From the NCBI RefSeq assembly GCF_963682185.1, contig NZ_OY821667.1, positions 3,423,501 through 3,487,500 on the forward strand: a stretch of 64,000 nt of DNA. Direction: 5' to 3'. Positions 7,100 through 60,638 of this stretch are shown in pieces. A program made the translations under genes and the position numbers. A model generated the notes under the pieces. That model was not told where the DNA came from, made no database searches, and worked only from the letters and a program-made list of their open reading frames with translations. How positions within the stretch are numbered: the stretch's first letter is position 1; each line of letters opens with the position of its first letter. The stretch is from an uncultured Cohaesibacter sp. (GTDB lineage: Bacteria > Pseudomonadota > Alphaproteobacteria > Rhizobiales > Cohaesibacteraceae).

Positions 7100-7531
7100 T
7101 CAGGCGGTCAGAGCCAATGCTCCGCTTCCCAGAAGAACCTGAACAAACAGGGCGACGGTCCAAAAGGCAGGATATTCCCAGCCGCCATTTTCATTCGTAA
7201 ACCAGAAGCCGTTTTTGGCATGTGCCAGAATGGTAGCCCCCAAAAGGGTCGGGATGAGTAGCAGCGCAACGAGGCTCGTCTGGAAGCCCACGATCAGGGC
7301 GATACCGCCAAGGGTTTCGGCTGCGATGGTCAGATAGACAAACCAGCCTGGCACGCCAAGGGACGCAAAGAACCCGGCGGCACCTTTGGGCGTGAAGATG
7401 AAGTATTTCAGATAGGCATGAGCCAGAAAGAGGCCCCCCAGGGAGACACGCAGCAACAAGGCTGCAAGGGCGATTGCGGTTACGGAGCCTGCGCCGGCGA
7501 AGCTCAGGATATTGGAAGAAAGGTCGATCAT
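7100..7531 (-). CDS. DoxX family membrane protein
   Basis: 143 residues with four membrane segments and the DoxX family look: ALLLRVSLGGLFLAHAYLKYF near the N-terminus, then FFASLGVPGWFVYLTIAAETLGGIALIVG. DoxX relatives are small inner-membrane proteins often tied to thiol or oxidative stress, but the function of this subgroup is not established. ATG at 7531 has GAGGA 7 bases upstream. No operon partner. Confidence 0.88.
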   Translation of the reverse strand: MIDLSSNILSFAGAGSVTAIALAALLLRVSLGGLFLAHAYLKYFIFTPKGAAGFFASLGVPGWFVYLTIAAETLGGIALIVGFQTSLVALLLIPTLLGATILAHAKNGFWFTNENGGWEYPAFWTVALFVQVLLGSGALALTA

Positions 7532-7830
7532 AATTTTGTCCTCATCAATCGGGGCCGCAAGGTGCGGCGTTTCGTTAAGGCAAAGATAGATCGATTTGAT
7601 TGAGTTTTAAATGTTGAAAATAGTGAATTACTATCAACAAAATATTCTAAATAGATGGTGTTTAATAACAACGGATCGTGCGCAGGTACTACAGAGAAAA
7701 TGAGCCGCGCAGCTTGGTTCGATCAAGCCGACCACCGTCCGAGAGGGGGGCCATTGAACGAAAGTTGGAAGGATTTCCACCGATGAAGGGAACCAATCAC
7801 ACCAAAAATAAGCAAAAACACATATTTCAA

Positions 7831-19842: not shown

Positions 19843-22527
19843 TTATAGCGGGTAAGCCCGTATGACATGATGACCGGGTTCCAGCGTGAACTCGGAACCG
19901 AGATCGGACGTCATGTCCCCGGGAAGTGTCACCTTGGCGTTAACGCTCGGTGGCAGGGCAACCTCCCAGTGAATTTCATTCTCCTCAAAATGCCAGTTGC
20001 TCGTAATGCGGCCGGTATGGGCATCATGCGTAGCTTCAACAAATCCGATGCGTTTGTCGAAGATGGGGCGCATGATGACAGACCGGAAACCGGGGGCGCT
20101 TTCATCCCAGTCAATGCCGGCAAGGCGCGACCAGATCCATTCGCCAACCGAGCCATAAGCATAGTGGTTGAAGCTGTTCATGGCCTTGCTCTGGAAGCCT
20201 TTTTCCTCAGTCCAGCCGTCCCAGCGTTCCCAAATGGACGTGGCGCCGTGCTTGATGGAAAAGCCCCAGCTTGGATATGTGTCCTTGAGCAGAAGCGAAA
20301 CGGCGAGCTCTTCTGCGCCATTGTCGCTGAGCACAGGGCAAAGATGCCGCACACCCAGAAAGCCGGTTTGCAGATGTCCGCCAGCCTGCTCGATCAGCTC
20401 TACAAGGCGCTGCGCTGCACGCTCTTTGGCTTCTTCAGGCAAGATGTCGAAATCAAGTGCCAGTAGATAGGCAGTCTGCGTGTCGCCCTTCAATCGGCCA
20501 TCGTCTGCCAGAAAGGCCTTTGTAAAGGCTGCCCGCAAGCGTTTGCCAAGTGCGATCCATGGCTCGGACTCTCGCTCCAATGCGGCTGCGATATCAGCCA
20601 TCAGGTCTGCGATATAAATCCAATAGGCTGTGTTGACCAACTCACGGTCTGTCGCCGGTCCAACGCTGAGCCAGTCACCATAGTTGTTGTGAACCTGATT
20701 GCGGCGAATGCCATCGGGGTTGCATCGTTCGATATAGTCCATCCATCTGACGAAAGGCTGCCAGCAACGATCCAGCAGATCCTTGTCGCCATAGCGCTGG
20801 TAATGCATCCAGCCCATGATGACCGGAGCATCCCCCCAGGCAGGAGCGCCCGGCTGCGGCGTCAGCCGATAAGGATTGAGCGGTTTGGTTGGCGCGACGT
20901 CGGGGAAGACACCCTCATCCGACTGGCCGTCGATCAGATCTTCCATCCACTTGGTCAGGAAGGCCGAGATGTCCATGAAATAGCCTGCTGTGCGCCAGAA
21001 AACCTGTGCATCCGCAGCCCAGCCATAGCGCTCGTCGCGCTGTGGGCAATCTGTGGGAACAGAGAGGAAGTTATCTCTCTGGCTCCAGAAGATGTTGGAC
21101 AAAAGCTGATTGACCATCGGGTGGCCGGTTTTCATATGGCCAACAACGGGCGTGTCCGTCTGGATGGCAATTGCGGTCAGCTCGGGTTGCGCATAGGTTT
21201 CCCCTTCGACGGTGAGTTCCACATACTGGAAACCGTGGAAGGTGAATTTGGGGTGGAAAATCTCGTTGCCCTTGCCGCTGGCAATATAAATGTCCTCAGA
21301 TACGGCATAGCGCAGATTCTCGGTATAGAGCCTGCCTTCCGAATCGAGCATTTCACCGTGGCGCAACAGGAAGCGGGTGCCTTCGCGCGCTTCCACATGC
21401 ATTTCGACATAGCCCGTCAGATTTTGGCCAAAGTCATAGATGGTTGTGTTCGCATCTTGAACAAACAGGGATTTGGGCTCCAGCCGAGCGACTTCTCTGG
21501 CTGGTTGGCCGCGCGACGCATCGATTTTTGGTAAGCCCGGTTCGGGAATGATTTCTTCCACCGGTTGCCAATAGGTCGTGTCGATGCCGCACTGACACCA
21601 GCCCTCCAACTCCAATCGGGCGTCAACCATTTCTCCGGCCAGAAAATCGGAATAGCAAATTGGTCCCTGTCGGGTCATCCAGTTTTCGTCGGAAATGATC
21701 GTCTCAATGTGTCCGTCGGCATATTCCAGTTGAAGCTGGCACAGAAAAGCAGGGCGACCGCCATAATGGTTGCCAGCGCGGCGTTGATTATGTCCGATAC
21801 GGCCCGAATACCAGCCTTCTCCGATGATTGCGCCAAGGCAGTTTTCGCCGGCGTTGAGCTGATCGGTCACGTCGTGGGTCTGGTATTCGACGCGAGTGTG
21901 ATAGTCCGTCCAGCCGGGGGCCATCACGTCTTCACCGATGCGCACACCATTGATATAGAATTCATAAAGGCCAAGCGCGGAGAGATAGGCAGTTGCCCGC
22001 ACGGGGCGCTCCGATAGGGCGATCTCGCGGCGCAAATAGTCTGCGGGGCGGGCCTGAAAGCGATTATCGTACAGATTGTCTTGCGGCACATCCCGTCCGG
22101 CAGGCAACACGAAATAGCGCCCGATCCAGTGAGCCTGCCACTGGTTCTGGGCCAGCCCTGTGAATAGCTCTGCCGGTTCGGCCAAAGCACCGGGTTTGTC
22201 GTCTTGATCCCAAACCTGAACGCTCCACCAAAGATGGGCGTCTGGCGGGAAAATCAGTGTCTCATCGGCATAAACGAAATTGTCTTCCCCGACGCATTTG
22301 CCCGAATCCCAGATGAGGTTGCCGCCTTCGCGTACGTCTTTTTCAGAAGCGCCGATCACAATTCGCCATGCGGTCTGGCGCGAAGGGCTCTGAGCCGAAT
22401 GTGCGCACTCAAGCGCCCAGCCGAAGAATGGCGGGCGGCTGTTCAACCCTGACACGCGCGCGAGATGCTGGCATCGCAGGTTTGTGGCAAGCAGCGATCC
22501 GTCTTGCCCGATAATTGGTAAAGTCAC
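19843..22527 (-). CDS. Alpha-L-rhamnosidase, glycoside hydrolase family 78
   Basis: 894 residues with the GH78 domain series: N-terminal beta-sandwich (WALECAHSAQSPSRQTAWRIVIGAS), carbohydrate-binding Bac_rhamnosid_N-like domain (YLSALGLYEFYINGVRIGEDVMAPGWTDY), and the (alpha/alpha)6 catalytic barrel. The catalytic signature is visible near residues 490-505 as DCPQRDERYGWAADAQ, which contains the acids equivalent to Asp567, Glu572 and Asp579 of Bacillus RhaB. No signal peptide is present, so it acts in the cytoplasm on imported rhamnosides. GTG start directly abuts the stop of the upstream GntR gene, so the two are translationally coupled. Confidence 0.92.
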   Translation of the reverse strand: MTLPIIGQDGSLLATNLRCQHLARVSGLNSRPPFFGWALECAHSAQSPSRQTAWRIVIGASEKDVREGGNLIWDSGKCVGEDNFVYADETLIFPPDAHLWWSVQVWDQDDKPGALAEPAELFTGLAQNQWQAHWIGRYFVLPAGRDVPQDNLYDNRFQARPADYLRREIALSERPVRATAYLSALGLYEFYINGVRIGEDVMAPGWTDYHTRVEYQTHDVTDQLNAGENCLGAIIGEGWYSGRIGHNQRRAGNHYGGRPAFLCQLQLEYADGHIETIISDENWMTRQGPICYSDFLAGEMVDARLELEGWCQCGIDTTYWQPVEEIIPEPGLPKIDASRGQPAREVARLEPKSLFVQDANTTIYDFGQNLTGYVEMHVEAREGTRFLLRHGEMLDSEGRLYTENLRYAVSEDIYIASGKGNEIFHPKFTFHGFQYVELTVEGETYAQPELTAIAIQTDTPVVGHMKTGHPMVNQLLSNIFWSQRDNFLSVPTDCPQRDERYGWAADAQVFWRTAGYFMDISAFLTKWMEDLIDGQSDEGVFPDVAPTKPLNPYRLTPQPGAPAWGDAPVIMGWMHYQRYGDKDLLDRCWQPFVRWMDYIERCNPDGIRRNQVHNNYGDWLSVGPATDRELVNTAYWIYIADLMADIAAALERESEPWIALGKRLRAAFTKAFLADDGRLKGDTQTAYLLALDFDILPEEAKERAAQRLVELIEQAGGHLQTGFLGVRHLCPVLSDNGAEELAVSLLLKDTYPSWGFSIKHGATSIWERWDGWTEEKGFQSKAMNSFNHYAYGSVGEWIWSRLAGIDWDESAPGFRSVIMRPIFDKRIGFVEATHDAHTGRITSNWHFEENEIHWEVALPPSVNAKVTLPGDMTSDLGSEFTLEPGHHVIRAYPL

Positions 22528-23208
22528 CTAAAGCTCCGTCGCCCTCTGTCGAGCATGAGAGATGTGAATATCCATCGCCTCAATGGCAGCCGCTGTGTCG
22601 CGCTTGGCGATGGCGTCAATAATAGCCAGGTGGTCGGTGAAGGTGTGAGGCAGCAGCAGTTCGGTCAAGCTGATTCGATCATGGCGGATCAACCTGATGC
22701 GGATTGCGTTAATATTGTAGGCCTGAATGAGAATTTCATTGTTGGTCAGGCGGATCAATACATTGTGGAAATCTGTGTCGATCTGCTGTCCACGTTTCAA
22801 AACGGCCTCGGACAGCCCGGTCTCCACAGCTTTTACAATGTTGAGATGAGCTTGGCGCTGCTCTTCCAGAACGCTATCCGGCATCTTCTTGACCGCATGC
22901 ATGACCGCTTCCCGCTCCAGAGCAGCGCGCATCTGGAAGGCATCGCGTATCATCGGAAGATCAATGGCCGTGATCTGGATCCCACGCTGGGGAACGACGG
23001 TTATAAGACCTTCCGATTCCAGACGTGGTAGCAGTTCGCGCAATGCGCCAATCGACAAATTCATCAGCTTGACCAGATCTTTCTGGCTAACAAGCTGACC
23101 GGATTTCAACTTGCCATCAAAGAGGGCAGCTTGAAAGAGTTCATAGGCTGTTTCCTTGACACTGCGAGAAGTATCGGCGTGTTCTGTCATCGCGCGACCT
23201 GCTATCAC
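22528..23208 (-). CDS. GntR family regulator, FadR/FCD type
   Basis: 226 residues with an N-terminal winged helix (VKETAYELFQAALFDGKLKSGQLVSQKDLVKLMNLS) and an all-helical FCD ligand domain with metal-site residues spread over DTDFHNVL and HTFTDHLAIIDAI. GTG at 23208 has AAGGA 8 bases upstream; ATG at 23190 is the alternative. It lies inside the catabolic operon after the aldolase gene and before the rhamnosidase, so it probably controls that operon and the divergent TRAP genes. The palindrome AGTATACT at 24168 fits the TNGTATACNA-like targets of this family. Confidence 0.9.
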   Translation of the reverse strand: MIAGRAMTEHADTSRSVKETAYELFQAALFDGKLKSGQLVSQKDLVKLMNLSIGALRELLPRLESEGLITVVPQRGIQITAIDLPMIRDAFQMRAALEREAVMHAVKKMPDSVLEEQRQAHLNIVKAVETGLSEAVLKRGQQIDTDFHNVLIRLTNNEILIQAYNINAIRIRLIRHDRISLTELLLPHTFTDHLAIIDAIAKRDTAAAIEAMDIHISHARQRATEL

Positions 23209-23234
23209 TTCAATTTCCTTTCACCACGGCGTTT

Positions 23235-24131
23235 CTAAAGAGCCTTTTCAGCCTCCGCCAATGCAGCTTCAATGGCTGCCAACTTGTCGGAAGACAGGGG
23301 CTCCATAGGGGGCATGGTGCGAGCGAAAGCAGGGTTGCCATAAACCTTGGCCATCAGAGCTTTCAGCACATTCAGACCGCCATTTCCGTCCACTGTCTCA
23401 ATACGCATTGTGGCGCGTTTCACGAAGCCTTCCGAAACGCCACCAAGATACAGCTGCACGCAGTCCTTTGCAAACGGGTTTGTCATGCCGCCGATCATGC
23501 CTGCGCCACCAGCATCCACCATATCGCGCAGAATTGCGTCGCTGCCGGTGAAAATGGAAAGCTCAGGGAATGCCTTGATCAGTTCAAGACCACCGGGCAG
23601 ATTGCCCGTGGAGTCTTTGATGCCAACCACAAGAGATCCGATGCGGTTCTGAACGGCTTTCACCTGTTCAACGCTGAACGGAATGCCGCTGAAATGCGGG
23701 AAATTATAAAGAACGATGTCGAGGCCGGGGTTACCCGCTTTCTTGACAAGGGCTTCATAATAATCCGCAACGCCTTCTACTCCGGCACTGCGGTAGTAGA
23801 AAGGTGGGATAATGAGGGCTGCTCTGCATCCCAGCTTGTGAGCTTCCACATACATGGAAACAGCGTCATCAAGTGATGATGTCATAACACCAGGGATCTG
23901 GCGTGACATATCCGCGCCCATGTCGGCGAGTTTGCGCAGCGCTTCAAGCTTTTGGCGCACCGACAACGAGGGCCCTTCCCCTGTTGTTCCAAAAACGGAC
24001 GTGTAGGCACACCCCGCTTCAAGCAGGGCATCGCAATGCCGTTTCAGTTGTTCGATATCTATTTCATAATCCTCGGTGAACGGCGTAATCGCCGCGCCGA
24101 CGACACCCTTAAGGTCGGAATTTTCCAACAT
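23235..24131 (-). CDS. Dihydrodipicolinate synthase/N-acetylneuraminate lyase family aldolase
   Basis: 298-residue (beta/alpha)8 barrel of the DapA family, which forms or cleaves bonds next to pyruvate through a lysine Schiff base. Visible catalytic features: GTTGEG at about residues 48-53, the tyrosine in LYNFPHFSG, and the Schiff-base lysine in VGIKDSTGN. The context (sugar kinase, isomerase, rhamnosidase and TRAP transporter) points to a 2-keto-3-deoxy sugar acid aldolase or dehydratase rather than lysine synthesis. ATG at 24131 has GGGAGG upstream. It is the first gene of the leftward operon. Confidence 0.88.
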   Translation of the reverse strand: MLENSDLKGVVGAAITPFTEDYEIDIEQLKRHCDALLEAGCAYTSVFGTTGEGPSLSVRQKLEALRKLADMGADMSRQIPGVMTSSLDDAVSMYVEAHKLGCRAALIIPPFYYRSAGVEGVADYYEALVKKAGNPGLDIVLYNFPHFSGIPFSVEQVKAVQNRIGSLVVGIKDSTGNLPGGLELIKAFPELSIFTGSDAILRDMVDAGGAGMIGGMTNPFAKDCVQLYLGGVSEGFVKRATMRIETVDGNGGLNVLKALMAKVYGNPAFARTMPPMEPLSSDKLAAIEAALAEAEKAL

Positions 24132-24319
24132 CAGGTGCAGCCTCCCATAAAAATTTCAGTCGAATGTAGTATACTCGATTTGATAACTGATACAATAAGT
24201 GTTAATATCAGCTAGTCAAACAAATTTCTTCGCGCTAATGTTTCTCGTGGAGCTATTCCTATACACCGGGGCTGGAGGGTTCTGGTGTGTGACCATTCTA
24301 TGTTCGGGAGGACACAAAC
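24132..24319. promoter_or_regulatory. Divergent promoter region with GntR-type palindrome AGTATACT
   Basis: 188 bases between the aldolase and TRAP dctP starts. AGTATACT at 24168-24175 is a perfect 8-base palindrome of the kind bound by FadR-type GntR proteins, 37 bases upstream of the aldolase start. Binding by the GntR protein of this locus is inferred. Confidence 0.45.
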
Positions 24320-25309
24320 ATGATTTCACGTGGTATCGCGGCTGCTCTCCTCTGCTGCACTTTCATTGCTGCACCAGCTGTGGCTCAAGACAAGCTCACC
24401 ATCAAATACACCACGGCTTCGGTTCCTTCGGACCTGCATACCAAAGCAATGCATGTCTTCAAGGAAGAGTTGGAAAAGAAAGTGCCGGGCCGCTTTGACG
24501 TTCAGCTCTATGATTCCGGTACCCTGTTTGCTCAAGGCGCTGACCTTGATGCTTTGCAGCGTGGCAATGCGGAAATGACCTATTTGTCATTCCAGTTGAT
24601 CGCGGACAATCTGCCTCAGTATAGCGTGCTGACGGCTGGCTACCTGTTCCAGAATGCCAAGCATTATCGTACCTTCCTGAATTCGGATCTGGGTGCCGAA
24701 CTGAAAGAAGCCGTATCCAACGATATGGACGTACAGCTGCTCGATACTTGCTATCTTGGTACACGCGAGCTGAACCTGCGTGCTGAAAAAGACATTCAGA
24801 CCCCTGATGATCTGAAAGGCATCAAGCTGCGCATGCCGGGCTCCGATGCATGGTTGTTCCTTGGTCAGGCTCTGGGTGCAAGCCCCACTCCGCTGCCATT
24901 CGGCGAAGTTTATCTTGGCTTGCAGACCGGCACCATCGATGCTCAGGACAACCCGCTGCCAACGGTTGAAGCTGCGAAATTCTACGAAGTTACAAAGCAG
25001 ATCACTCTGACCGACCACCTTGTTGATGGTCTCAACATTGCCGTGAACAACCAGACCTGGGAACAGCTGAACGAAAGCGAAAAAGCTGCCATGGTTGAAG
25101 CTGCGCAGGCATCTTGTGACTGGAACAACGAACAGCGCTACAAGGAAGAAGCCCGTTTGATCGACTTCTTCAAGGAAGAAGGCCTCAAGGTCACGACGCC
25201 GGATGTTGATGCATTCCGCAAACATGTGCAGGACTTCTACTTCAGCTCTGATCGTTCCAAAAACTGGCCGGAAGGCTGGGTCGAAAAGATCAACGCAATG
25301 GCCGAATAA
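24320..25309 (+). CDS. TRAP transporter substrate-binding protein, DctP family
   Basis: 329 residues with a signal peptide (MISRGIAAALLCCTFIAAPAVA). It captures a carboxylate-bearing ligand in the periplasm for sodium-driven uptake. The DctP core is clear: VQLYDSGTLFAQGADLDALQRG, the ligand-carboxylate arginine in GIKLRMPGSDAW, and GLQTGTIDAQDNPLPTVEAAKFYEV. GGGAGGA precedes the start. Divergent from the rhamnosidase operon, so the cargo is probably an acidic rhamnose-containing sugar or a sugar acid. Confidence 0.93.
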   Translation: MISRGIAAALLCCTFIAAPAVAQDKLTIKYTTASVPSDLHTKAMHVFKEELEKKVPGRFDVQLYDSGTLFAQGADLDALQRGNAEMTYLSFQLIADNLPQYSVLTAGYLFQNAKHYRTFLNSDLGAELKEAVSNDMDVQLLDTCYLGTRELNLRAEKDIQTPDDLKGIKLRMPGSDAWLFLGQALGASPTPLPFGEVYLGLQTGTIDAQDNPLPTVEAAKFYEVTKQITLTDHLVDGLNIAVNNQTWEQLNESEKAAMVEAAQASCDWNNEQRYKEEARLIDFFKEEGLKVTTPDVDAFRKHVQDFYFSSDRSKNWPEGWVEKINAMAE

Positions 25310-25324
25310 GGAGCATTTGCTGCT

Positions 25325-25831
25325 ATGGCTAATATCCTTTCAAAGGATATGCTGCTCGCAACCGGTCGCCTTTTGAAAAAGGCGGCCGACGCGATCGGCG
25401 TCCTGCTCTTCCTGTTCGCCTTTGGCGGGTTCATTGTACAGATCTTCTATCGCTATGTGATGAACGCGCCTCTTCTGTGGACGGAAGAAATCACGATGAT
25501 CGCATTCATTTGGACCGTGTTCTGGGCGGCTGCATTCATGACGCCGGTTCAGTCTCACGTGTCTTTCGATGTGGTTTACGATGTCGTAAATCCCAGAACG
25601 CGTCGGATCTTCAGCATCATTTCCATGTTGGCACTGTTCATCTCTTTCGTGCTGCTTGTTCCGGCCACATGGGATTATCTCCAGTTCCTCACCCGCAAAA
25701 AAAGCTCTGTTCTGCGTTTGCCCATGTATTGGATCTACGGCTGCTACATGCTGTTTATCCTGGGTTTTATCGTTCAGGCCGTCTATCGGCTGTACGGTTT
25801 GCTGAGCCAGAAGTGGGAAAAATATATTTAA
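25325..25831 (+). CDS. TRAP transporter small permease, DctQ family
   Basis: 168 residues with four membrane helices and the DctQ signature FIVQIFYRYVMNAPLLWTEEITMIAFIWTVFWAAA. The small subunit pairs with the DctM-type gene 15 bases downstream. Good ribosome site (AAGGAG) before ATG 25325. Confidence 0.92.
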   Translation: MANILSKDMLLATGRLLKKAADAIGVLLFLFAFGGFIVQIFYRYVMNAPLLWTEEITMIAFIWTVFWAAAFMTPVQSHVSFDVVYDVVNPRTRRIFSIISMLALFISFVLLVPATWDYLQFLTRKKSSVLRLPMYWIYGCYMLFILGFIVQAVYRLYGLLSQKWEKYI

Positions 25832-25846
25832 AAGGGTTGAGTTAGA

Positions 25847-27151
25847 ATGACCTTCTTCGCAGATCATGCTCTAAGCCTGATGCTGATCATCATGATTGGT
25901 ATCACGATTGCCGGGCTGCCGATGGGTATCTCGATGATCGTTGCCAGTATCTTCTATCTCTTTTTCTCCGGGCAAGATGTCGGTCTGGCTGCCGAGAATG
26001 TTCTGAACGGTGTGTTCGGAAACTTCGTGGCGCTTGCGGTTCCTCTCTTCATTTTTGCTGCCAATATCATGAATGCCGGTAAGGTGTCAGACCGAATATT
26101 GACCTTTGCCTTGGCGTTGGTCGGGCGCGTGCCCGGCGGTTTGGCGCAGGTGAATATCATGACATCGCTCATCTTTTCGGGCATGAGCGGATCGGCCATC
26201 TCCGATGTGGCCGGTGTCGGTAAAGTCCTGACGGACATGATGATCAAGGAAGATCGCTATCCGCGTGGTTTTGCAGGAGCAATCACGGCGGTTTCTGCCG
26301 TTGTCGGCCCGATCTTCCCCCCGTCTATCCCTGTGATTTTCTACGCCCTGATCTCCTCCACATCCGTGGGCGTATTGTTCCTTGGCGGCGTTGTTCCGGC
26401 CTTTCTGGTTTGCACCACGCTTGGCATCGCGGTGATGATCATGGCCAAGCTGCGCGGGTTCCCGGTTGAGGAAGCTATCCCCCTCAAAGCTTTCCCAATC
26501 ATTCTGATCCGGGCGCTGCCAGCGCTTCTGATGCCGATCATTCTGCTTGGCGGTATCTACTCGGGTGCCTTCACCCCGACCGAAGCGGCTGCAGTTTCAG
26601 CCTTCTATGCACTGCTTTTGGCGGCCTTCGCCTATCGTGTGCTTGGCTTCTGGTCCTTCATCTCGGTGGTGCGGGAAACGGTCAAGACGACGGCAGTGGT
26701 CACCATCGTTCTGTGTGGCGCCTATATCTTCAACTATATCGTCACCGTGGAGCAGGTTCCCCAGCAGGTCTTCGCATTCTTTGATGCAATGGATCTCAAC
26801 CGGGTTCAGTTCCTGCTGATCCTGAATGCTCTGTTCCTGGTTCTCGGTTGCGTGCTTGACTGCTCGACAATCATGCTGGTTGTCACGCCTTTGTTTATCC
26901 CAACCGCATTGGCATTGGGTATCGACTTGCACCATCTGGGCATCGTGCTGGTGTTCAACATGATGATCGGTCTGGTGACGCCTCCATATGGCATCCTGCT
27001 GTTCATCATCAAGGCTCTGAACGGGATTCCGCTTGGTGAAATGATCCGTGAAAGCTGGCTCTTCCTTGGTCTTTTGATCATGCTGCTGCTGCTGCTGACC
27101 TTCTTCCCGCAGTTGGTACTGTGGCTGCCTCACTATGCAGGGATGCTGTAA
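25847..27151 (+). CDS. TRAP transporter large permease, DctM family
   Basis: 434 residues, about 12 helices, the transport-forming subunit. Family signatures: MSGSAISDVAGVGKVLTDMM, VGPIFPPSIPVIFYALISS and GIVLVFNMMIGLVTPPYGILLF. It completes the TRAP operon and is followed by a strong terminator. Confidence 0.94.
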   Translation: MTFFADHALSLMLIIMIGITIAGLPMGISMIVASIFYLFFSGQDVGLAAENVLNGVFGNFVALAVPLFIFAANIMNAGKVSDRILTFALALVGRVPGGLAQVNIMTSLIFSGMSGSAISDVAGVGKVLTDMMIKEDRYPRGFAGAITAVSAVVGPIFPPSIPVIFYALISSTSVGVLFLGGVVPAFLVCTTLGIAVMIMAKLRGFPVEEAIPLKAFPIILIRALPALLMPIILLGGIYSGAFTPTEAAAVSAFYALLLAAFAYRVLGFWSFISVVRETVKTTAVVTIVLCGAYIFNYIVTVEQVPQQVFAFFDAMDLNRVQFLLILNALFLVLGCVLDCSTIMLVVTPLFIPTALALGIDLHHLGIVLVFNMMIGLVTPPYGILLFIIKALNGIPLGEMIRESWLFLGLLIMLLLLLTFFPQLVLWLPHYAGML

Positions 27152-27203
27152 GTTTCCTCCCAAACAGGCTTCGATACACTTTACCAAAGCCTACAGACTG
27201 AGA

Positions 27204-27238
27204 ACGGGTGGCCCCAACCTACGGAGCCACCCGTTTTT
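27204..27238 (+). terminator. Rho-independent terminator of the TRAP operon
   Basis: ACGGGTGGC pairs with GCCACCCGT (9 of 9), extended by an inner CC/GG, followed by a run of T. It is 53 bases past the DctM stop. Confidence 0.9.
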
Positions 27239-27294
27239 GTTTCGTCTTGCAGAGATTGAATATCATCTGCTCTCAGGCAAATCTGATGCCGCCC

Positions 27295-28395
27295 TCAAGC
27301 GTCTCGATCTGACCGATTTTCAATCGGAGGAATGAGTGCGGTTTCAATATTCTGGCTCGCAAGAGCTTTCTGTTCATCTTCAAGACTGACCCCAGCATGA
27401 TCAAGGGACGACACCAAGCGAACGATATGTTTGCCGGAGCTTGCGAGTTTTGTCAGCAGCATGGTCGTGTCTTCATTTTCCTCTCCGAGGCGCGTCTTTA
27501 CATCGTTGATCGACAGACGCCGGGCTTCACGGCGCGCCAACTCCAGAATTTCAGAGCTCGTCTCATCGCCATAGACAATGATGTCGGCTGCATGCAAAGC
27601 GCGAATGGCGCGCATGGGAAGCAGATCGCTTTCTCCATGCCAAGTATCAATGAAGGTGACCCTGCCTGACGGCAACGCGTTGGGAGTGGGGGATGTGCGA
27701 AGGATATCCTCGATCGAGTTCGCGGCGATCCTGTCCGGACCTGAAAAGGCCAGATCGACAAAAGCTTCCCAGAAACGTCGACGCTCCGCACCCGGCTGAA
27801 AACGCAACTGCACACCGGAGCGCAGGCTTTGAGCCAGTTTCGCCCAATCGGAGATGACAGGCGGTATCAGGCTTTCGATGCGTCGACGGATTGCCTGCCC
27901 CAGAATGGGGGCGGAGCCATCCGTCGAGATACTAATAACGACGGGAGAACGATTGACGATAGATCCGAACTGGAACTGACAATGATCCGGATTGTCTATG
28001 ATGTTGACCACGGCACCGGCGGCATTGGCTGATGTCACGAACCGTTCGGCTTCTTCGGCTTCCTCGATGTCACCGATGGCCAGCAAGGCACCTGTGAAGC
28101 TGTCCTCGGTCCAGTCCTGACGATGCCAGACATAGCGTCGCTCAGCTGTTTTTGCATCAACAAGCAGCTGCCTCAATTCCTCTCCGGGTTCTTTGGAATA
28201 GACATGTACAATCGCCCCGGTCGCGGCCAGAAGCTCGGCTTTCCACGCTGCGCCATCGCTTTCTCCGGCCAGCACAACCCTGCGTCCTTTTAGATTGAAA
28301 AAGACCGGTAGGGTGGCCAGATCAGTGATACGATCTCGGCGTCGTACCGCTCTGGGTTCATTTTGCAGATCTACTTCACTCCGCAACGATATCAT
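27295..28395 (-). CDS. cysG: Siroheme synthase-like protein: precorrin-2 dehydrogenase/ferrochelatase with decayed methylase domain
   Basis: 366 residues from ATG 28395, chosen for its GGAG site 7 bases upstream; the frame stays open about 68 codons further up but that part is not conserved-looking. The N-terminal Rossmann domain (LPVFFNLKGRRVVLAGESDGAAWKAELL) and the dimerisation part (SPVVISISTDGSAPILGQAIRRRIES) match CysG/Met8, which oxidise precorrin-2 and insert iron. The C-terminal part resembles the uroporphyrinogen methylase fold (RAIRALHAADIIVYGDETSSEILELARREARR) but its GAGPGD motif reads DTWHGES and the domain is short, so methyl transfer is unlikely. Divergent from the sulfite reductase operon it serves. 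Confidence 0.8.
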   Translation of the reverse strand: MISLRSEVDLQNEPRAVRRRDRITDLATLPVFFNLKGRRVVLAGESDGAAWKAELLAATGAIVHVYSKEPGEELRQLLVDAKTAERRYVWHRQDWTEDSFTGALLAIGDIEEAEEAERFVTSANAAGAVVNIIDNPDHCQFQFGSIVNRSPVVISISTDGSAPILGQAIRRRIESLIPPVISDWAKLAQSLRSGVQLRFQPGAERRRFWEAFVDLAFSGPDRIAANSIEDILRTSPTPNALPSGRVTFIDTWHGESDLLPMRAIRALHAADIIVYGDETSSEILELARREARRLSINDVKTRLGEENEDTTMLLTKLASSGKHIVRLVSSLDHAGVSLEDEQKALASQNIETALIPPIENRSDRDA

Positions 28396-53703: not shown

Positions 53704-53953
53704 TCGGGGCCTGATCAAGACAATAACCTTCCGCAACGTAACGGTTCACGAAGGCCAGCAGGCTATCCAGAGCGGAATTGAAAAAGCTTAACGGCAAATT
53801 TGGGCTCGGACCGGTGCGGTGCATCATCACCGGAAATGGCTCATCTGGGGTCGTGATTGGTATTCGCTGCCCTTTGCGGGCTCTCATAAACCTATAGACC
53901 TCGCAATGCTGCATCCCATCAGCTGCCGTTCGGTGAACAGAATAATTCTGCAC
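53693..53953 (-). pseudogene. Possible short gene or gene remnant, 86 aa
   Basis: A GTG-started frame between two convergent operons with fairly normal codon use; it begins MQNYSVHRTAADGMQHCEV and ends [17 protein letters not shown] do not recognise the family. It overlaps the end of the MalG-type gene by about 11 bases. It could be the remains of a longer gene, or chance. Confidence 0.3.
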
Positions 53954-54010: not shown

Positions 54011-55183
54011 TCATTGTTCCGCAGGTTTGAGTTGATGATGAGCAACAGTAAATCTGGATGCCACGGATTTGAAGAAGTAGACTAGATAACACATGGCAGC
54101 GACCACTATGGTATAGGACAAGCCCTCAGCCCCAACTATATCCATGCTCGTTCCGATAATGCAAAGGCCAATCGTGCCGCCAATCGCGTCCATAAGCGTG
54201 TAGGTCATGTTGGCAGACATCTGGTCTTCCTTACGGAATTGCTCGCCAATGATGTTGAGCCCCAGTGCATAGATCCCTCCCATGCATCCGCCCCAAAGAT
54301 AGAGCAGTCCCAAAGCGACAAGCAAATGGGAATAGATCGCCAAGGATAGAAATGAAGCACAGAAGACCGAGGTGCAGACACAGATGAAAACAAGACGATA
54401 GTGGCTGTAAAAGGCAGAGAGCGTACTAACGACCATTCCCAGAGTAACACTGCCCAGCATGAACATTGTGAGCAGCAGCGCTGCGTCTTCAGCTTTCAAA
54501 CCATTCTTGATGCCATAAATCGTAAGGAAAGATGGCAAACCAAAAAAGCAGAAGCCGCCAACCACGGTAGAAAGCAGAATGAGTTTGGCATGCTTGAAAA
54601 CAAAGCCAATGCGCGCCTTCTTGTCGGAATGGAAAGACGGGCGACTTTTTACAACCGTCAACATGATTGCCAAAACGAGCAAGGAAATCGAGCTGCTGAG
54701 AATGAATGGCAGGCGGCTATGCATGTCGGTAAAGCGTAAAAGGATCGGCGCCAAAGCGACTCCCAAAGACAGGGCTGAGGAAAAGAGCCCCATAATCAAT
54801 CCCTTGAGCTTGCCGGCAGAGACCATATTGAGCCATGTCTGGACCACCACGAGCAATGCATTGGTGGTCAAGCCATAGAGGAACATGCCCAGAATCCAGC
54901 CGATGATCATGTCATTATTGGATAGGAAATAGACCACAGCACAGCGAACGAAAGAACAAATGATAATGGTGTTAATGACACCAAGCTTTTTGACGATCAG
55001 AGAAATCCGGCTTGAGAAGACGATCAATGCGAGAATGTCGCATGACATCACAAAGCCAATCAGTGCATTGGTCACGCCCTGAGACTGAAGTGCGAGAGGA
55101 AAGGTAATATAGTTGATCCCGGAAGAGAGCTGAATGCCGAACGTAGCCAACACCAGGATGAAGGGTGTAATTTGCTTCATCAT
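54011..55183 (-). CDS. MFS transporter of the GABA/ion channel operon
   Basis: 390 residues with 12 predicted helices and a major facilitator layout (central cytoplasmic loop at SRPSFHSDKKARIGFVFKHAK). Substrate cannot be named from sequence. It overlaps the sensor gene by 4 bases (ATGA), so it is translated with it as the last gene of the operon glutamate decarboxylase - ion channel - sensor - transporter. A role as exporter or importer of GABA, glutamate or a related amine is an inference from context only. Confidence 0.85.
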   Translation of the reverse strand: MMKQITPFILVLATFGIQLSSGINYITFPLALQSQGVTNALIGFVMSCDILALIVFSSRISLIVKKLGVINTIIICSFVRCAVVYFLSNNDMIIGWILGMFLYGLTTNALLVVVQTWLNMVSAGKLKGLIMGLFSSALSLGVALAPILLRFTDMHSRLPFILSSSISLLVLAIMLTVVKSRPSFHSDKKARIGFVFKHAKLILLSTVVGGFCFFGLPSFLTIYGIKNGLKAEDAALLLTMFMLGSVTLGMVVSTLSAFYSHYRLVFICVCTSVFCASFLSLAIYSHLLVALGLLYLWGGCMGGIYALGLNIIGEQFRKEDQMSANMTYTLMDAIGGTIGLCIIGTSMDIVGAEGLSYTIVVAAMCYLVYFFKSVASRFTVAHHQLKPAEQ

Positions 55184-56532
55184 GCAGCCTCACGGGTTGT
55201 GTCTTCTTGATATTTGTTGATTGGCAATTCCAGATACAGGCTCGATTTTTCGCCTTCATTGAGCCAACCGGCTGTGCCTCCCATGGCCTTCGCTGTGGCG
55301 ATGGCGCTGAAGAAACGCAACTCTTGTTCGCTGTAGTCTTCTGCTCTGGAAAGATCAGGCTTAAGGCTCTCACCAAGTGCACTGGTTTCCAATTTGCCAT
55401 TTGACCCAGCAAAGTCAAAAGACAGAATTAGACTATCGACCCTTTCTTCAACCAACTTGATGTCAAGCTCCACTGCGCCCTGTTCTACCATTGACCGGAT
55501 GTGATCAACCAAAGCCGTGATCATGTCTTTGAGAGCATTTTTGTCTCCTGACACGACATTGGGAATGTCGCCCTCTGTCGAAATCTTAAACGAAACAGCG
55601 TTAGCTGACTGCGCTTTCAAATCCGCAACGAATTCTTCAAAAGCAAAATTTTGAGGATTAAAGGATTTCTGGACGCTGCGTCTTAAATACCGTAGCCAAC
55701 TCTGGGCCATGCTTTCCGCATTGTTGCCACCGGCCCCGGATTTTCCTGTAAGATACTCAAGCAGATGAATGAAGCTTTGCTTCACTGCGTCCAGCTGACC
55801 CTTCCGCTTGGCCTTTTCCGAGCGCAAGTCTTCATTCTGATGGCTAAGAAAGGCCGTGTGTTTTCTCGACAACCAAGTGAGCAAACCAATGATCAGGCCA
55901 ATAAAGACCACAATGAAAGCCGTCTTTTCAAAGGCCTGTCTGATTGGATGAATGCGTTTATAAAAATCGTCGAGCTGCAGATCCATACCGAGCACTCCGA
56001 CAAAATCGCCTTTTGCATCGTAAAATGGCGCATAGGCGCTAATAAAGGTTCCCCATTTGTCAGTGTAGGGATCTGAAACAACCTTCTTTTGAAACTTGAG
56101 CGCTTCGATCAGTTCCGGCGCCGCATCGTCATATCGCTCCATCAATGCAGGAGGTTCATCGGGCTGCCCGTCACCATCATTGTCATTCTGTGGGCTCGGA
56201 TTGAGAATGAAGAAGACATCATCACCTATCAGAATGTTGGTGTAGATATAGCGAACGTTGGTCGCAGCCTGACGGATTTGTTCCAGAGGAGTAATGGCCG
56301 ACAGATAGTCAGGATCATCGCGTGCAGTGGACTGGTCAAATGTTTTGTGCAGGTCGCCATCAATCGTAGTAGCCGCAGCTGAAACATTGGAAAGAAGGCC
56401 GATCTTGATCTCCTTTTCCAACACGTCAACAGACTTGCTGTAAATCAGAAAAGCCAGAAAGCAGATCAGGGAAACCACAAGACAGGAGAGAATAGCGGCT
56501 TCAAGTTTCGGATGAGGCTTAAGGATTTCCAT
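55180..56532 (-). CDS. Membrane PDC/Cache sensor with decayed histidine-kinase ATPase domain
   Basis: 450 residues. Helix 1 at about 12-32 and helix 2 at about 203-222 flank a periplasmic PDC/dCache sensor (residues 35-200) with the family phrase YTDKWGTFISAYAPFYDAKG and VGVLGMDLQLDDF. In it, NDNDGDGQPDE (116-126) looks like a DxDxDG calcium-binding loop. The cytoplasmic part (250-436) ends in a HATPase-like fold (ATAKAMGGTAGWLNEGEKSSLYLELPI), but no phosphorylatable histidine in an H-box, no N-box asparagine and no DxGxG are visible. It is therefore probably a pseudokinase or signalling scaffold. Start ATG 56532; it lies 23 bases after the ion channel gene. Confidence 0.8.
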   Translation of the reverse strand: MEILKPHPKLEAAILSCLVVSLICFLAFLIYSKSVDVLEKEIKIGLLSNVSAAATTIDGDLHKTFDQSTARDDPDYLSAITPLEQIRQAATNVRYIYTNILIGDDVFFILNPSPQNDNDGDGQPDEPPALMERYDDAAPELIEALKFQKKVVSDPYTDKWGTFISAYAPFYDAKGDFVGVLGMDLQLDDFYKRIHPIRQAFEKTAFIVVFIGLIIGLLTWLSRKHTAFLSHQNEDLRSEKAKRKGQLDAVKQSFIHLLEYLTGKSGAGGNNAESMAQSWLRYLRRSVQKSFNPQNFAFEEFVADLKAQSANAVSFKISTEGDIPNVVSGDKNALKDMITALVDHIRSMVEQGAVELDIKLVEERVDSLILSFDFAGSNGKLETSALGESLKPDLSRAEDYSEQELRFFSAIATAKAMGGTAGWLNEGEKSSLYLELPINKYQEDTTREAA

Positions 56533-56555
56533 TCGTTAGTCTCGCTCTTGGCTTT

Positions 56556-57626
56556 CTATAAATTGAAAATTCGGATTTCAAACAAGATGATGCAGACGAT
56601 GCAGACCGGATAGAGAAGGCGCGAGCCTCGCATCAGCTTGGCCTTGTCAAATGTTTCTGATTTGCGCTCCAGCAGCTCTGCTGCGACGATGACAACCATG
56701 CTTGCAAAAATGCTCAGATAGCCCAGTATCGTAAGCATTCCCATGAAGGTCGTATAAGGCAGACGCGGCAGGAGGCTGGTCGCCTGAAAGGTAAAAGCGA
56801 CAACCGTTAGCATCAGCGTGAATGCGATGGAGATGTTGGTCAGAAAATCGTCCACCCAGAAGACGCACCATGAAGAGGTGATAATCAGGATTAGCGGCAG
56901 CATGAAATTCCAAACATAGTAGTCGCATTTACGCTCAAGCTTGAATTGCAGATTGTAGCGGGAGAATTCTGTCTTGCTGCCGTCTTCGCTGAGATGGGAA
57001 TAGTCTTGATCGCTGATGAAAACTTGTTTGTCGACAATGTTCCATTCTGCCAGCATCTCCATACCGACCAGTTCTGGGTAGACTTTTGGATGTACAAATT
57101 CGAATTGTTTCTTGTCGTAGGAAAAGGATTCAAGCTGGACGGTCAATGTTTGGCTGTCGAAAGGAAATTTACGAAAGTCCATCGGGGTTGAGAAGGTAGC
57201 CTGAAAGCGTTCGTTGTAAAGAACCCCGCCATCTTCGCTTAGCGAGACCTGCCTGTTGGCAATGGTCCGGCTCCCAACTACGTTGATAAACTCGATCGCC
57301 GGAATGCGAAGGCCGTTGGAGATCAAAGCGTCAATGGCACCATTCTCGTAAACATCCGGGCTCAATTCACCCTTTTCAATGCGGTCATGTAGACGGACGT
57401 CTTTCCAGGAGCTGACAAGATACCCGTCGATTACATAGGTCTCATTCAGCTCGTTGAGTTCGTAGATCTTGTTGATGTTGATCGCGATGCTTGCTTTTGT
57501 TGTTTCCGGCTTGCTATCTGAAGACGCAGGCGGTTCTGCGTAACCACTTGCTGAAAGCACACAAAAAAGCATGAAATAAAAAATTCCTGCAATCAGCTTT
57601 TTGTAAGTGGCCGTCCACTGAGCCAT
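56556..57626 (-). CDS. Pentameric ligand-gated ion channel, ELIC type
   Basis: 356 residues from ATG 57626, giving a signal peptide (residues 1-30, to SASGYA). A TTG earlier lacks a ribosome site. The extracellular beta-sandwich has the Pro-loop FPFD (154-157) in place of the eukaryotic Cys-loop, plus NINKIYELNELNETYVIDGYLVSSW. M1 is about 236-257, M2 260-282, M3 293-318, M4 333-353. M2 reads SIAFTLMLTVVAFTF, nearly the ELIC pore: Thr270 (6'), Leu273 (9'), Ala277 (13'), Phe280 (16'). ELIC ligand-site equivalents kept: Glu112, Glu166 and Phe168 (loop B), Tyr209 and Phe221 (loop C). It follows a glutamate decarboxylase, whose product GABA opens ELIC. It should form a cation channel in the inner membrane. 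Confidence 0.95.
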   Translation of the reverse strand: MAQWTATYKKLIAGIFYFMLFCVLSASGYAEPPASSDSKPETTKASIAININKIYELNELNETYVIDGYLVSSWKDVRLHDRIEKGELSPDVYENGAIDALISNGLRIPAIEFINVVGSRTIANRQVSLSEDGGVLYNERFQATFSTPMDFRKFPFDSQTLTVQLESFSYDKKQFEFVHPKVYPELVGMEMLAEWNIVDKQVFISDQDYSHLSEDGSKTEFSRYNLQFKLERKCDYYVWNFMLPLILIITSSWCVFWVDDFLTNISIAFTLMLTVVAFTFQATSLLPRLPYTTFMGMLTILGYLSIFASMVVIVAAELLERKSETFDKAKLMRGSRLLYPVCIVCIILFEIRIFNL

Positions 57627-57652
57627 AGCCCTGTTTTCCTCTATCGGATATC

Positions 57653-58948
57653 TCAAACTGCCTGTTTAAATGCGGGAATGCTTCCTGTCCGCACACTCAG
57701 AATTTCCCTGATGTCTTCAAGCAAAGCATCCAGTCTGGCGCGGCTCATGTCTTCCCGGATCACGATCCTCATCACCTTGCGATTGATGTTCTGCGGCATT
57801 GCATAAAAGGGCAGCATCCAACCCTTTTTTCTGAGATCGCTGGTCAAGACTTCCTCCCTCAGAGGGCAGTCCGGCTTGAGGCTAAAAGCAATAACTGGCA
57901 AAGAAAGCGTACTGATGATGTCAAAGCATCCTGTTGCCTCAAGGCTCGCGGCAACATGACGCGTATTTTTCAAGCAGCGCTCAATAATGGCGCTATATCC
58001 GGCCCGACCATAGTGCAGAAAATTGAAATATTGCGCCACGACCAGTGATGATGAACGAGAAAAGGAAATCGAATAGGACTGAGTATTACCGGTAAGGTAG
58101 CTCGCAGTCATGTTCATCGCATCGGGAACCATGGACTTGTCCCGCAGGATAAGCCAGCCAAGACCTGGATAAACCAGCCCGAATTTATGTCCTGAAAGAT
58201 TGATCGAACGCACAAGAGGTAAAGCAAAATCCCAAACCGGTTTGTCGGGATCGTTAATAAATGGCAGGATAAAGCCTCCGATGGCGCCATCGACGTGAAT
58301 GCCGACATTCCAGCCGTTACGTTCGTTCAACTCGGTGAGAGCATCATTGAGCTTTTCTACCGGATCGCAAAAACCAGAGAAGGTTGAGCCCATGACGGCA
58401 ACCACGCAAATTGTGTTTTCATCCACGAGATCAACAACCGTTTGCAACGGATAGCAATTGATGTCGTCAAAACTTGCCTCCCGGACTTCAACGCCGAGAT
58501 AAAGTGCAAATTTACGCCAGACCAAATGTGTGTTCTTGCCGAGAATGATATTGGGGGTACGATGCAACTGGCCGCTGGATGCATTTGATTGCCAGAGCCA
58601 TTTGTGCATCAGCATCGCGATGGCACAAGCTTCGGACGACCCGGAGGTTGAGCAACCGGCAGCCTCTTGTGCATTTGTCGATCCCAGAAGGTCTGCAATA
58701 GTTTGAACGAGCCTTTTATGCAGATGCGTCGTTTCACCATATTCATTTTGATTGGCGAGATTTTTACCAAGATGGTCGTAAATCAAGCGGTCGGCTTCGG
58801 GCTGCATGTGAATGGCAGTGAAGCTGCCCAGATCCTGATGAGGGTCTCCGTCTCCTTCTAGCTCACGAGATATCTGCTCATAAGCTTTTGCCGGAGCCAT
58901 TCCGAAATCGCACAGACAACTAGTGAATTCTTTTTCCATTTGCATCAT
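57653..58948 (-). CDS. gad: Glutamate decarboxylase-like PLP enzyme
   Basis: 431 residues from ATG 58948; starts at 58978 or 58939 are alternatives. It converts L-glutamate to GABA and carbon dioxide, consuming a proton. The PLP lysine is Lys255 in SGHKFGLVYPGLGW, the cofactor aspartate is Asp220 in HVDGAIGGF, and GSSEACAIAM (103-112) binds phosphate. The order GSSEA, HVDGA, SGHKFG matches GadB of E. coli, but the C-terminus ends FKQAV and lacks the penultimate histidine that closes the E. coli active site at neutral pH. The N-terminal activating helix is shorter. First gene of the channel operon; its stop lies 27 bases from the channel start. Confidence 0.88.
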   Translation of the reverse strand: MMQMEKEFTSCLCDFGMAPAKAYEQISRELEGDGDPHQDLGSFTAIHMQPEADRLIYDHLGKNLANQNEYGETTHLHKRLVQTIADLLGSTNAQEAAGCSTSGSSEACAIAMLMHKWLWQSNASSGQLHRTPNIILGKNTHLVWRKFALYLGVEVREASFDDINCYPLQTVVDLVDENTICVVAVMGSTFSGFCDPVEKLNDALTELNERNGWNVGIHVDGAIGGFILPFINDPDKPVWDFALPLVRSINLSGHKFGLVYPGLGWLILRDKSMVPDAMNMTASYLTGNTQSYSISFSRSSSLVVAQYFNFLHYGRAGYSAIIERCLKNTRHVAASLEATGCFDIISTLSLPVIAFSLKPDCPLREEVLTSDLRKKGWMLPFYAMPQNINRKVMRIVIREDMSRARLDALLEDIREILSVRTGSIPAFKQAV

Positions 58949-59618
58949 CCATCTTTCGACATTCCTTGCCGGTCGCATGCGGTTTGGGCGCGATAGGTAA
59001 GTCAAAATGTCGATAGTACTCGGTACACTACACAATGCATTTCAGTCTTCGCAGCTCATGGAAAAACATACGCCCGGAAGCAGTTCATCGAAAGAAATGC
59101 GTATAAATTGATTTTAGACATGGAAAGCTAAAATTTCGTTACATTCCAATAGAGTACCTCGAAAACGAAGTTTCTATTCCCGATTATGCCGTCCGTAACT
59201 AGGACCTGTTGCCCACGATAAAGCTCCGTTTTCCGCCGGAACATGTTGTTATTATCAGGATATATTTGGGGATCTGCAGAGTATCCGCTTTTGCCAACCG
59301 CATCAGAAATCTCACCGCTGCGGGGGATGAGCGAAACCGCCCAATTCACATGTCGTTTATCCAATGATCTCGGAATTTCGTGGAGATAGCAGGCTTAGGC
59401 GTTCGCCGCGCATTTGGCACGTACCGAAGGGCAGTTTGCTCATTCCTGCTATTCATTCAAAGCGCAGCATATTGAGTAATCAGGCGGCCCAAAAACTTTC
59501 AAAGTAGCCTTTCACAGATACGCAAGGCTTTTGTATGGCTGGACCTCTTGGGCGAAATCTGCTGTGCTGGTGAGCCTTGTCGCCTTTAGCAAAGATGAAA
59601 TGATACTTGCCTTCATGG
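58949..59618. other. Intergenic region upstream of the decarboxylase-channel operon
   Basis: 670 bases, containing the promoter of the leftward operon. Two minus-strand frames (59128-59364 and 59480-59662), both with TTG starts and no ribosome site, are not convincing genes. No clear terminator of the upstream flavin operon was found. The region may include decayed sequence. Confidence 0.45.
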
Positions 59619-60638
59619 TTAAATCCAGCAAGTGCTTCGATAATCTGACGATGTAGATTCAAACGCTGGCCCCACAGCGATCTGCTTTAGCGTTTCTCCA
59701 TCTCTGATAAGGAAAAGGGCATGGATCCCCTTGGCACGGGCTACATGCAACCCGGCCTCCGCGCCCATCACCATGAGTGCGGTTGCCCATGCGTCCGCCG
59801 TCATGCAGTGCTCGGCAATCACGCTGACCGATGCCACATTATTCTGAAGTGGACCATTGCGGCGCGGGTCCATCGTATGGCTAAAAGTGCGGTTGCCAAC
59901 CTTTACCCAGTGCCGATAATCGCCGCTGGTCGCGATGGCTGCGTCCTGCAAATGCACCATACCGAATGCTTCTCGCAGGTTATAGTCAGGTTTCTCCAAA
60001 GCAATAGACCATGGCACGTCCTTTACCTTAGGCCCGATAGCGCGCATTTCACCATCAATGCCAACAAGGCCGCTCTTGATGTCGAAAGCCTTCAACACCT
60101 CGGCCATGGCATCCACACCATAGCCCTTGGCTATGCCGCATAGGTCGAGTTTCACTTGTGCCTTTTTCAGTACCGCCTGCTGTTCAGGATCCAGCTCCAA
60201 AAGCGCGTGTGTCGGCATTCTTGTTTGGCGCAGTTGCTCACCTATGCTCTTTACATCGGGTTCCCGCGACGTGGCTCCAAACCCCCATGCGTCTACGATG
60301 GAACCAACAGCCGGATCGAACAGCCCACTTGAAGCCCGATTAATCGCAATGGCTTCTTCCAGCACCTTGAAAAGGTCTGCTGGCACTTTCGTCCAGACGC
60401 CGACTTTGGCTCTGTTCAACTGCATAAGATCCGAGTCCGGGTTCCAGGTAGACATTTGCCTGTCCACCCGATCCACTGAGGCGTACAACGCTTCTTTGAG
60501 CCCTTCAGCCGGCTGTACCTCCTCGCTCATGATAATGGCGCTATAGCGGGTGCCCATAGTTTTTCCGTTGAAGACATGCTTGTGCAACCCGGTTTGCTGG
60601 CGACCTGCTCGTTCTATATCAAAAGACATCTTCAACAT
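59619..60638 (-). CDS. apbE: FAD:protein FMN transferase
   Basis: 339 residues. It cleaves FAD and attaches FMN to Ser/Thr of exported flavoproteins. The ApbE features are visible: FNGKTMGTRYSAII at the start, DLCGIAKGYGVDAMAEVL (FAD-binding), LVGIDGEMRAIG and THTMDPR-like SHTMDPRRNGPLQN with DAWATALMVMGAE. No lipobox or export signal is seen at the chosen start (AGGA upstream), so it may act in the cytoplasm or the true N-terminus may differ. It overlaps the PepSY reductase by 20 bases. Target is likely the DUF2271 protein of the operon. Confidence 0.9.
   Translation of the reverse strand: MLKMSFDIERAGRQQTGLHKHVFNGKTMGTRYSAIIMSEEVQPAEGLKEALYASVDRVDRQMSTWNPDSDLMQLNRAKVGVWTKVPADLFKVLEEAIAINRASSGLFDPAVGSIVDAWGFGATSREPDVKSIGEQLRQTRMPTHALLELDPEQQAVLKKAQVKLDLCGIAKGYGVDAMAEVLKAFDIKSGLVGIDGEMRAIGPKVKDVPWSIALEKPDYNLREAFGMVHLQDAAIATSGDYRHWVKVGNRTFSHTMDPRRNGPLQNNVASVSVIAEHCMTADAWATALMVMGAEAGLHVARAKGIHALFLIRDGETLKQIAVGPAFESTSSDYRSTCWI

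Follow-up and report, generated by a model that had tools for sequence, protein, structure and literature searches.

Positions 54011–58948 of the window (the whole 64,000-nucleotide stretch of DNA analysed here, from an uncultured Cohaesibacter sp. whose 5.39-Mb genome forms a single contig) were confirmed to contain an operon of four minus-strand open reading frames (ORFs). These encode a pyridoxal phosphate (PLP)-dependent glutamate decarboxylase (GAD), a pentameric ligand-gated ion channel of the ELIC type, a PDC/Cache sensor protein and a transporter of the major facilitator superfamily (MFS). The operon is judged to be real, conserved and functionally coherent, with an arrangement that exceeds chance, since it is found again in other genera and in a second phylum. 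The best explanation, to which we assign a probability of roughly 0.45, is that it represents a mobile four-gene amine-signalling cassette with an exchangeable enzyme class, by means of which a cell would signal to itself with a self-made amine. The identified features (positions in the window) are the following:

57653–58948, minus strand: PLP-dependent glutamate decarboxylase, TIGR01788 family; first gene of the operon, 431 amino acids (aa) from the ATG at 58948
56556–57626, minus strand: ELIC-type pentameric ligand-gated ion channel; 356 aa from the ATG at 57626
55180–56532, minus strand: PDC/Cache sensor protein; 450 aa, conserved in residues ~1–224, with a divergent kinase-like cytoplasmic region (225–450)
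54011–55183, minus strand: MFS transporter; 390 aa, 4-base overlap with the PDC gene
54043–58963, minus strand: extent of the cassette, as delimited by its DNA match to the copy in C. marisflavi; the match ends on both sides

The gene identities proposed in the original prediction were supported by family and structure searches. The operon shape described there, with 23 bases between the channel and PDC genes and a 4-base overlap (ATGA) between the PDC and MFS genes, was also recovered, but the decarboxylase/channel gap is 26 bases long, not 27. The decarboxylase ORF stays open upstream of its ATG, to position 59035, and the channel ORF has an in-frame TTG at 57656. The spacing suggests that the four genes are probably transcribed together. 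A sigma-70 scan returned 7 sites, with 7.3 expected, and all of them were located on the strand opposite to the operon. Upstream of the decarboxylase lies a region of approximately 0.6 kb (58948–59619) without a clear gene.

Analysis of the distribution of the channel revealed that ELIC-type channels are rare among the genomes searched. The channel query was positive in 4 of 18 Cohaesibacter genomes, and in the phylum-wide search it gave matches at E 1e-10 in 8 of 398 genomes, the window's own channel being the sole ELIC-type one. The family search around the Flavobacteriaceae genome RhTr2 was positive in 3/397 genomes (two ELIC-type) and that of the Enterobacteriaceae-type family in 5/392 (all ELIC-type), while the searches of the respective classes yielded 1/237 (RhTr2 itself) and 6/219 (none ELIC-type, at most 161 bits). 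A contig scan added one more relative, L005 (24% identity, not ELIC-type). The ELIC-type set thus defined comprises 11 genomes: four of Cohaesibacter, two of Flavobacteriaceae (RhTr2 and G495) and five of the Enterobacteriaceae type. Two named relatives in the genus, C. marisflavi and C. haloalkalitolerans, correspond to genomes G005 and G003 by position and identity of their matches. In one Enterobacteriaceae-type channel (L046), about 5 of 322 residues are different from those of solved ELIC, as counted from the alignment.

The survey for adjacent decarboxylase genes, proposed in the original prediction as a check, showed that the linkage is conserved: a PLP decarboxylase gene directly precedes the ELIC-type channel in all 11 genomes, and genes for a PDC sensor and an MFS protein follow it in 10. 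At five other loci measured, the gaps do not exceed 25 bases and several genes overlap, the PDC junctions of L042 and L044 being tighter still. By comparison, none of 12 loci of other channels (5.3–14.9 kb, from 11 genomes, L031 and L032 belonging to one genome) matched either decarboxylase type or the PDC half of the sensor, in a search that would miss decarboxylases unrelated to the query enzymes and in which four loci (L056, L057, L060 and L061) are cut near the channel by contig ends. One of these loci contains an MFS gene (22% identity), and another has a match to the kinase-like tail only; channel matches G069, G051, G062 and G1474 were left out of the neighbour comparison. In locus L032 of genome G279 (5075–7716), a different channel is found directly after an MFS gene with 22% identity to that of the cassette.

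Within the genus, a GAD is present in exactly the four genomes that carry the channel and in none of the other 14 (for 16 of the 18 genomes, completeness is at least 90% and contamination at most 5%). Such co-occurrence has a chance of 1 in 3060 if the genomes are treated as independent, but they are related. A chance neighbourhood, or a set of hitch-hiking genes, would be easiest to defend on the grounds that the independent lineages are few (three groups) and that the Enterobacteriaceae-type copies compared have one neighbourhood. Nevertheless, the same order, strand and tight spacing are found in three groups and two phyla with differing flanks, which makes this explanation highly implausible.

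The window decarboxylase scored 425 bits with the TIGR01788 glutamate decarboxylase model (cut-off 380.4), and all six GAD-type enzymes lie above this cut-off (401–478 bits). Residues T212, D243, S273, H275, K276 and R422 of GadB, which we take to have catalytic or PLP-related roles, are identical in 6/6 of them. GABA (γ-aminobutyric acid) is regarded as the likely product of the window enzyme; glutamate is the best guess for its substrate, although its specificity or pH range may have shifted.

The enzymes encoded upstream of the Enterobacteriaceae-type (Dickeya-type) channels gave a different picture. All five scored only 17–27 bits with the GAD model (cut-off 380), and their best family model was histidine decarboxylase (191–203 bits, below its cut-off of 305). 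For the two enzymes compared with solved structures (L044 and L046), the closest relative was L-methionine decarboxylase (PDB 7cif; 229 and 226 bits), presumably of Streptomyces origin, followed by serine decarboxylase (106–108 bits), with a GAD at about 24 bits; the window enzyme belongs to a class different from that of 7cif. Plasmid relatives of the Dickeya-type enzyme reach at most ~35% identity among the matches listed, and are labelled pyridoxal-dependent or histidine decarboxylase. Judged by these scores, none of the Dickeya-type enzymes is a GAD, and the published GAD annotation of the Dickeya gene is doubtful, since the five enzymes lie so far below the GAD cut-off. The channel is thus coupled to two decarboxylase classes. 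In the channel tree (built from channel ORFs, stop to stop, of six of the ten four-gene copies) each enzyme class occupies one branch with full support, so that a single enzyme switch is represented.

Among solved structures, the closest relative of the window channel is ELIC (257 bits, residues 46–364 of the 366-residue ORF), with GLIC at about 130 bits. The protein falls below the channel cut-offs of NCBIfam (131 bits against 500, and 125 against 280), but in a tree that also included five other bacterial channels, some on long branches, it shared a branch with ELIC (support 100/100). The gate residues 9′ leucine and 16′ phenylalanine are kept. Pocket residues Y38, E77, N103, E131, F133 and Y175 are identical in 11/11 ELIC-type channels, and position 188 is aromatic in all of them (Y in one). 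In the 2011 study of ELIC (PMC3119659, PLoS Biology), in which positions 175 and 188 are numbered 174 and 187, E77 and E131 sit near the amine head of the ligand and R91 near its far end. Positions 19 and 91 are occupied by N or H and by Q in 6/6 GAD-linked channels, and by F and R in 5/5 Enterobacteriaceae-type ones. This pattern agrees with a kept amine site and a changed tail side of the pocket, as a single event. Co-variation of the pocket with enzyme class was considered and rejected: 2 of 12 pocket positions switch with the class, but so do 29 alignment columns in all, and with each class on one branch this amounts to one event without enrichment.

According to the same study, ELIC opens with primary amines including GABA. 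The half-maximal effective concentrations (EC50) tabulated there are 0.37 mM for cysteamine, 0.45 mM for aminopropane and 2.4 mM for GABA, the strongest agonists being short thio- and alkyl-amines. The need for high micromolar to millimolar levels of so many short primary amines could also indicate a detector of amines from outside, in which the channel, together with the PDC protein, responds to amines or amino acids released by a host, an alga or neighbouring cells, while the decarboxylase and the MFS protein take up and process amino acids, and the enzyme's product is not the main ligand. Bacterial channels with sensor-domain partners have been proposed as chemoreceptors (PMC549065). The decarboxylase beside the channel in 11/11 genomes, with two classes represented, points to the product and not the substrate as the relevant compound, and external sensing is considered possible but unlikely.

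With respect to the transporter, the window protein matched MFS_1 with 115 bits. A profile search among solved chains gave no match at E 0.01, and the protein showed no similarity to E. coli GadC. Comparison with the GadB/GadC acid resistance system of E. coli revealed that the window enzyme shares with GadB the GAD family, the catalytic lysine and the main PLP residues. The window operon differs in having an MFS protein in place of GadC, an enzyme with four changed residues (62, 86, 163 and 167, discussed below) and a shorter C terminus, and in the addition of a channel and a sensor. The stretch forming the C-terminal plug of GadB, to which H465 presumably belongs, is shorter and poorly conserved in the GAD-type enzymes; the position of H465 within it is H in 2/6 GADs and Q in the window. 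An acid-resistance module was disfavoured on account of the plug region and of the lack of similarity to GadC, and the same two results weaken the suggestion, made when the operon was first noted, that it senses pH through GABA.

A more general metabolic or pH module could be envisaged, in which decarboxylation of glutamate consumes protons, the MFS protein exchanges glutamate for GABA, and the channel serves as a regulated, charge-balancing ion leak. GAD family membership and the inclusion of a transporter in the operon fit such a module. The absence of GadC similarity and the unconserved plug region (even though H465 aligns with H in two enzymes) do not, and in the Enterobacteriaceae-type copies the enzyme class has been exchanged while the other three genes stay; a purely metabolic function is therefore improbable.

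The PDC protein has a layout of a membrane helix, a periplasmic PDC domain, a second membrane helix and a kinase-like cytoplasmic region. The Pfam PDC domain was detected barely above its cut-off of 27 bits in the window (27.9) and in RhTr2 (27.1), with no match in the Dickeya-like copy. The predicted structure (mean predicted local distance difference test score, pLDDT, 72.8; predicted template modelling score 0.43) consists of a long helix, a sheet and a second long helix. Among the ten four-gene copies, residues 1–224 are 50–60% identical between the three groups (mean 53), compared with 40–43% for the mature channel, 44–50% for its M1–M3 region (mean 47) and 41–54% for the MFS protein (mean 44); setting a chosen half against whole proteins flatters the sensor somewhat. 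When the window is compared with RhTr2, identity is 58% for the sensor half and 46% for the GAD, which is common to two groups only. The kinase-like tail has diverged to 11–21% identity between groups and to 25–40% among three Cohaesibacter (this range and the 58% value refer to six of the ten copies).

The tail resembles the kinase region of RetS (E 4e-4), and RetS, GacS and other kinases were found as both profile and fold matches. The likeness to a histidine kinase is confined to profile and fold: no histidine column that could serve as phosphoacceptor is common to the four Cohaesibacter tails, and ATP-binding motifs, judged by eye, are lacking. The description of this region as a non-catalytic kinase domain was hence borne out, in that it looks non-catalytic. 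RetS itself acts through other kinases, and the PDC protein might by the same token be the true receptor, regulating gene expression or other kinases, with the channel as a downstream effector of the same regulon. The RetS-like region and its matches speak for such a role. Since this region is the least conserved part measured and has no common histidine, we regard the proposal as no less improbable than the metabolic one. The conservation of the periplasmic and membrane part beside a drifting tail points instead to selection on the former and to an accessory role of the protein at the membrane. A short motif in the PDC part, following the pattern DNDxDGxPD in 10/10 copies, resembles calcium-binding loops:

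56158–56184, minus strand: codons of DNDGDGQPD, residues 117–125 of the PDC protein (putative calcium-binding loop)

A calcium link between this loop and the inhibitory site of ELIC was dropped, as two of the three acidic residues of that site (113 and 158) are lost in Cohaesibacter.

Comparative analysis of the DNA surrounding the cassettes provided evidence on mobility. The region beside the C. marisflavi cassette is 96.6% identical to positions 20848–27245 of the window (6.4 kb), and the similarity stops just before that cassette. The corresponding site, beside the TRAP (tripartite ATP-independent periplasmic) transporter (window 27151–27295, similarity ending at 27245), has no cassette in the window genome, whose own cassette lies ~27 kb away and shows 78–81% DNA identity to that of C. 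marisflavi. The four cassette genes of the two genomes are 38–47% identical at four-fold sites, compared with 80–93% for three flanking genes, while the MFS proteins are 91% identical. This suggests old, constrained cassette copies within young, near-identical surroundings. The left flank of the window site is 98% and 88% identical in two other genomes and breaks at 53705–53709, just before the cassette; C. haloalkalitolerans and G012 have a common third site. The cassette therefore appears to move, given the different sites and the strongly diverged silent positions beside near-identical flanks, and separate acquisition or replacement is favoured.

Three possible vehicles were considered and rejected. 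A scan of viral contigs with the channel alignment, limited to two peptide patterns, identified no relative. The only channel relative on plasmids was one from Legionella (24% identity), and no plasmid matched the PDC half. As for tRNA-linked insertion, no tRNA is present in the window, L004, L029 or L044, and the tRNAs of L002 and L003 lie ~4 and 6 kb from the cassette.

The self-signalling reading draws on the gene families, their order and tight spacing in three groups, co-occurrence, differing sites, discordant divergence, class exchange and sensor conservation, all of which are apparent from the sequences. In the proposed mechanism, the cytoplasmic PLP decarboxylase would convert an amino acid to a primary amine (in the window most likely glutamate to GABA), and the MFS protein would carry the amine across the inner membrane, alone or in exchange for the amino acid. 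On the periplasmic side, the amine would then bind to the ELIC-type channel, which would open an ion path. The PDC protein, with its two membrane helices, might bind a second periplasmic cue and use its membrane half, not phosphorylation, to tune the channel or the transporter. Three points are inferred: that the enzyme makes the channel's ligand, which way the transporter works, and that the sensor touches the channel. A bolder version can be proposed only tentatively. It depicts a self-contained, horizontally moving, neurotransmitter-like loop in which an amine is made, sent out and received by a channel with a Cache-type accessory subunit. The amine would be set by the acquired decarboxylase class, which would supply GABA in Cohaesibacter and Bacteroidota and a short amine, derived from methionine or similar, in Dickeya; the tail side of the pocket would be re-tuned accordingly.

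Several observations weigh against the self-signalling reading. G495 contains only the decarboxylase and the channel within 14 kb, so that the sensor and the MFS protein are not indispensable; moreover, the independent lineages are few and represent one enzyme switch. The window enzyme carries D86→N, T62→S, Q163→H and H167→R relative to GadB, and its substrate could consequently differ. D86, which we take to be the distal carboxylate site, is replaced by N in 5/5 GADs of four-gene copies (window included) and kept in G495, while the position of H167 varies among the six GAD-type enzymes and that of Q163 is H. The predicted structure of the MFS protein (mean pLDDT 43.8) was too poor to use and was set aside. 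In the channel, the glutamate at the inner pore mouth of ELIC is absent (T in Cohaesibacter, D in RhTr2, N in G495), making cation selectivity uncertain. F19 and R91, on the complementary side of the ELIC pocket, correspond to N and Q in the window channel. According to PMC3119659, the R91A mutant of ELIC has a fourfold lower EC50 for cysteamine and the F19A mutant an EC50 above 10 mM; the loss of R91 would not favour a carboxylate ligand such as GABA. Finally, gating of the channel by GABA and transport of GABA by the MFS protein are both predictions.

The linkage between decarboxylase and channel is not new. The original prediction had left open whether it had been described near ELIC in Dickeya, and it had: in PMC3119659, a gene annotated as glutamate decarboxylase adjoins the ELIC gene in the same operon, and GABA is proposed as a candidate ligand. 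The ELIC operon of Dickeya dadantii (Erwinia chrysanthemi), as seen in Dickeya-like genomes, resembles that of the window in having a decarboxylase upstream and PDC and MFS genes downstream with tight spacing; it differs in the enzyme (non-GAD in 5/5 copies), pocket residues 19/91 and the inner pore ring. A literature search covering mostly papers outside subscription found no mention of PDC or MFS partners, of enzyme exchange or of a cassette in organisms other than Dickeya, although Figure 6A of PMC3119659 may include additional genes of the operon in Dickeya. What the present analysis adds is the cassette of four genes and its occurrence in two phyla, together with its apparent mobility, the exchange of the enzyme and the conservation of the sensor.

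Solute-binding-type neighbours of bacterial channels have been described by Tasneem et al. (PMC549065), the text of which does not contain the word “decarboxylase”. Among the bacterial Cys-loop channels with Cache or PBP-II (type II periplasmic binding protein) neighbours covered there, a Cache-type sensor in the operon (Rhodopseudomonas) and the idea of a sensor acting with a channel are shared with the present system. The Cache gene there is stand-alone and from one bacterium, whereas here a PDC/kinase-like/MFS set is conserved together with a decarboxylase. Two ORFs near other channels of our comparison (L031 3912–5090 and L033 5614–6498) were read by eye as periplasmic solute-binding proteins.

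A 2016 survey (PMC4795631) states that the biological role of such channels in single-celled organisms is unknown for all of them. A cassette conserved across two phyla names likely channel partners, proposes a ligand and offers a route to learning what bacterial relatives of nerve receptors do; the conserved PDC membrane protein beside the channel could be a bacterial accessory subunit. The published hint of GABA as the natural ligand of ELIC is called into question, as the Dickeya-type enzyme falls outside the GAD family and the most potent agonists resemble the expected products of a methionine decarboxylase. If this enzyme is histidine decarboxylase-like, histamine becomes a candidate, a word absent from the main text of PMC3119659.

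Some minor features were observed around the cassettes of other genomes. Genes for DUF2589 proteins are located in the vicinity of the cassette, with three copies in RhTr2 and others in G495 and G825 (L004 2655–5610; L029 12496–13848; L042 13287–13874), and an endolysin-like relative is present near it in RhTr2 and G495; neither was found in the window or in the Cohaesibacter loci searched. In 5/5 Enterobacteriaceae-type loci, the MFS gene is followed by a GH19 endolysin-like gene (L042 10336–11052, and the same place in L043–L046), as assigned by a family search for the L042 copy and by similarity for the other four.

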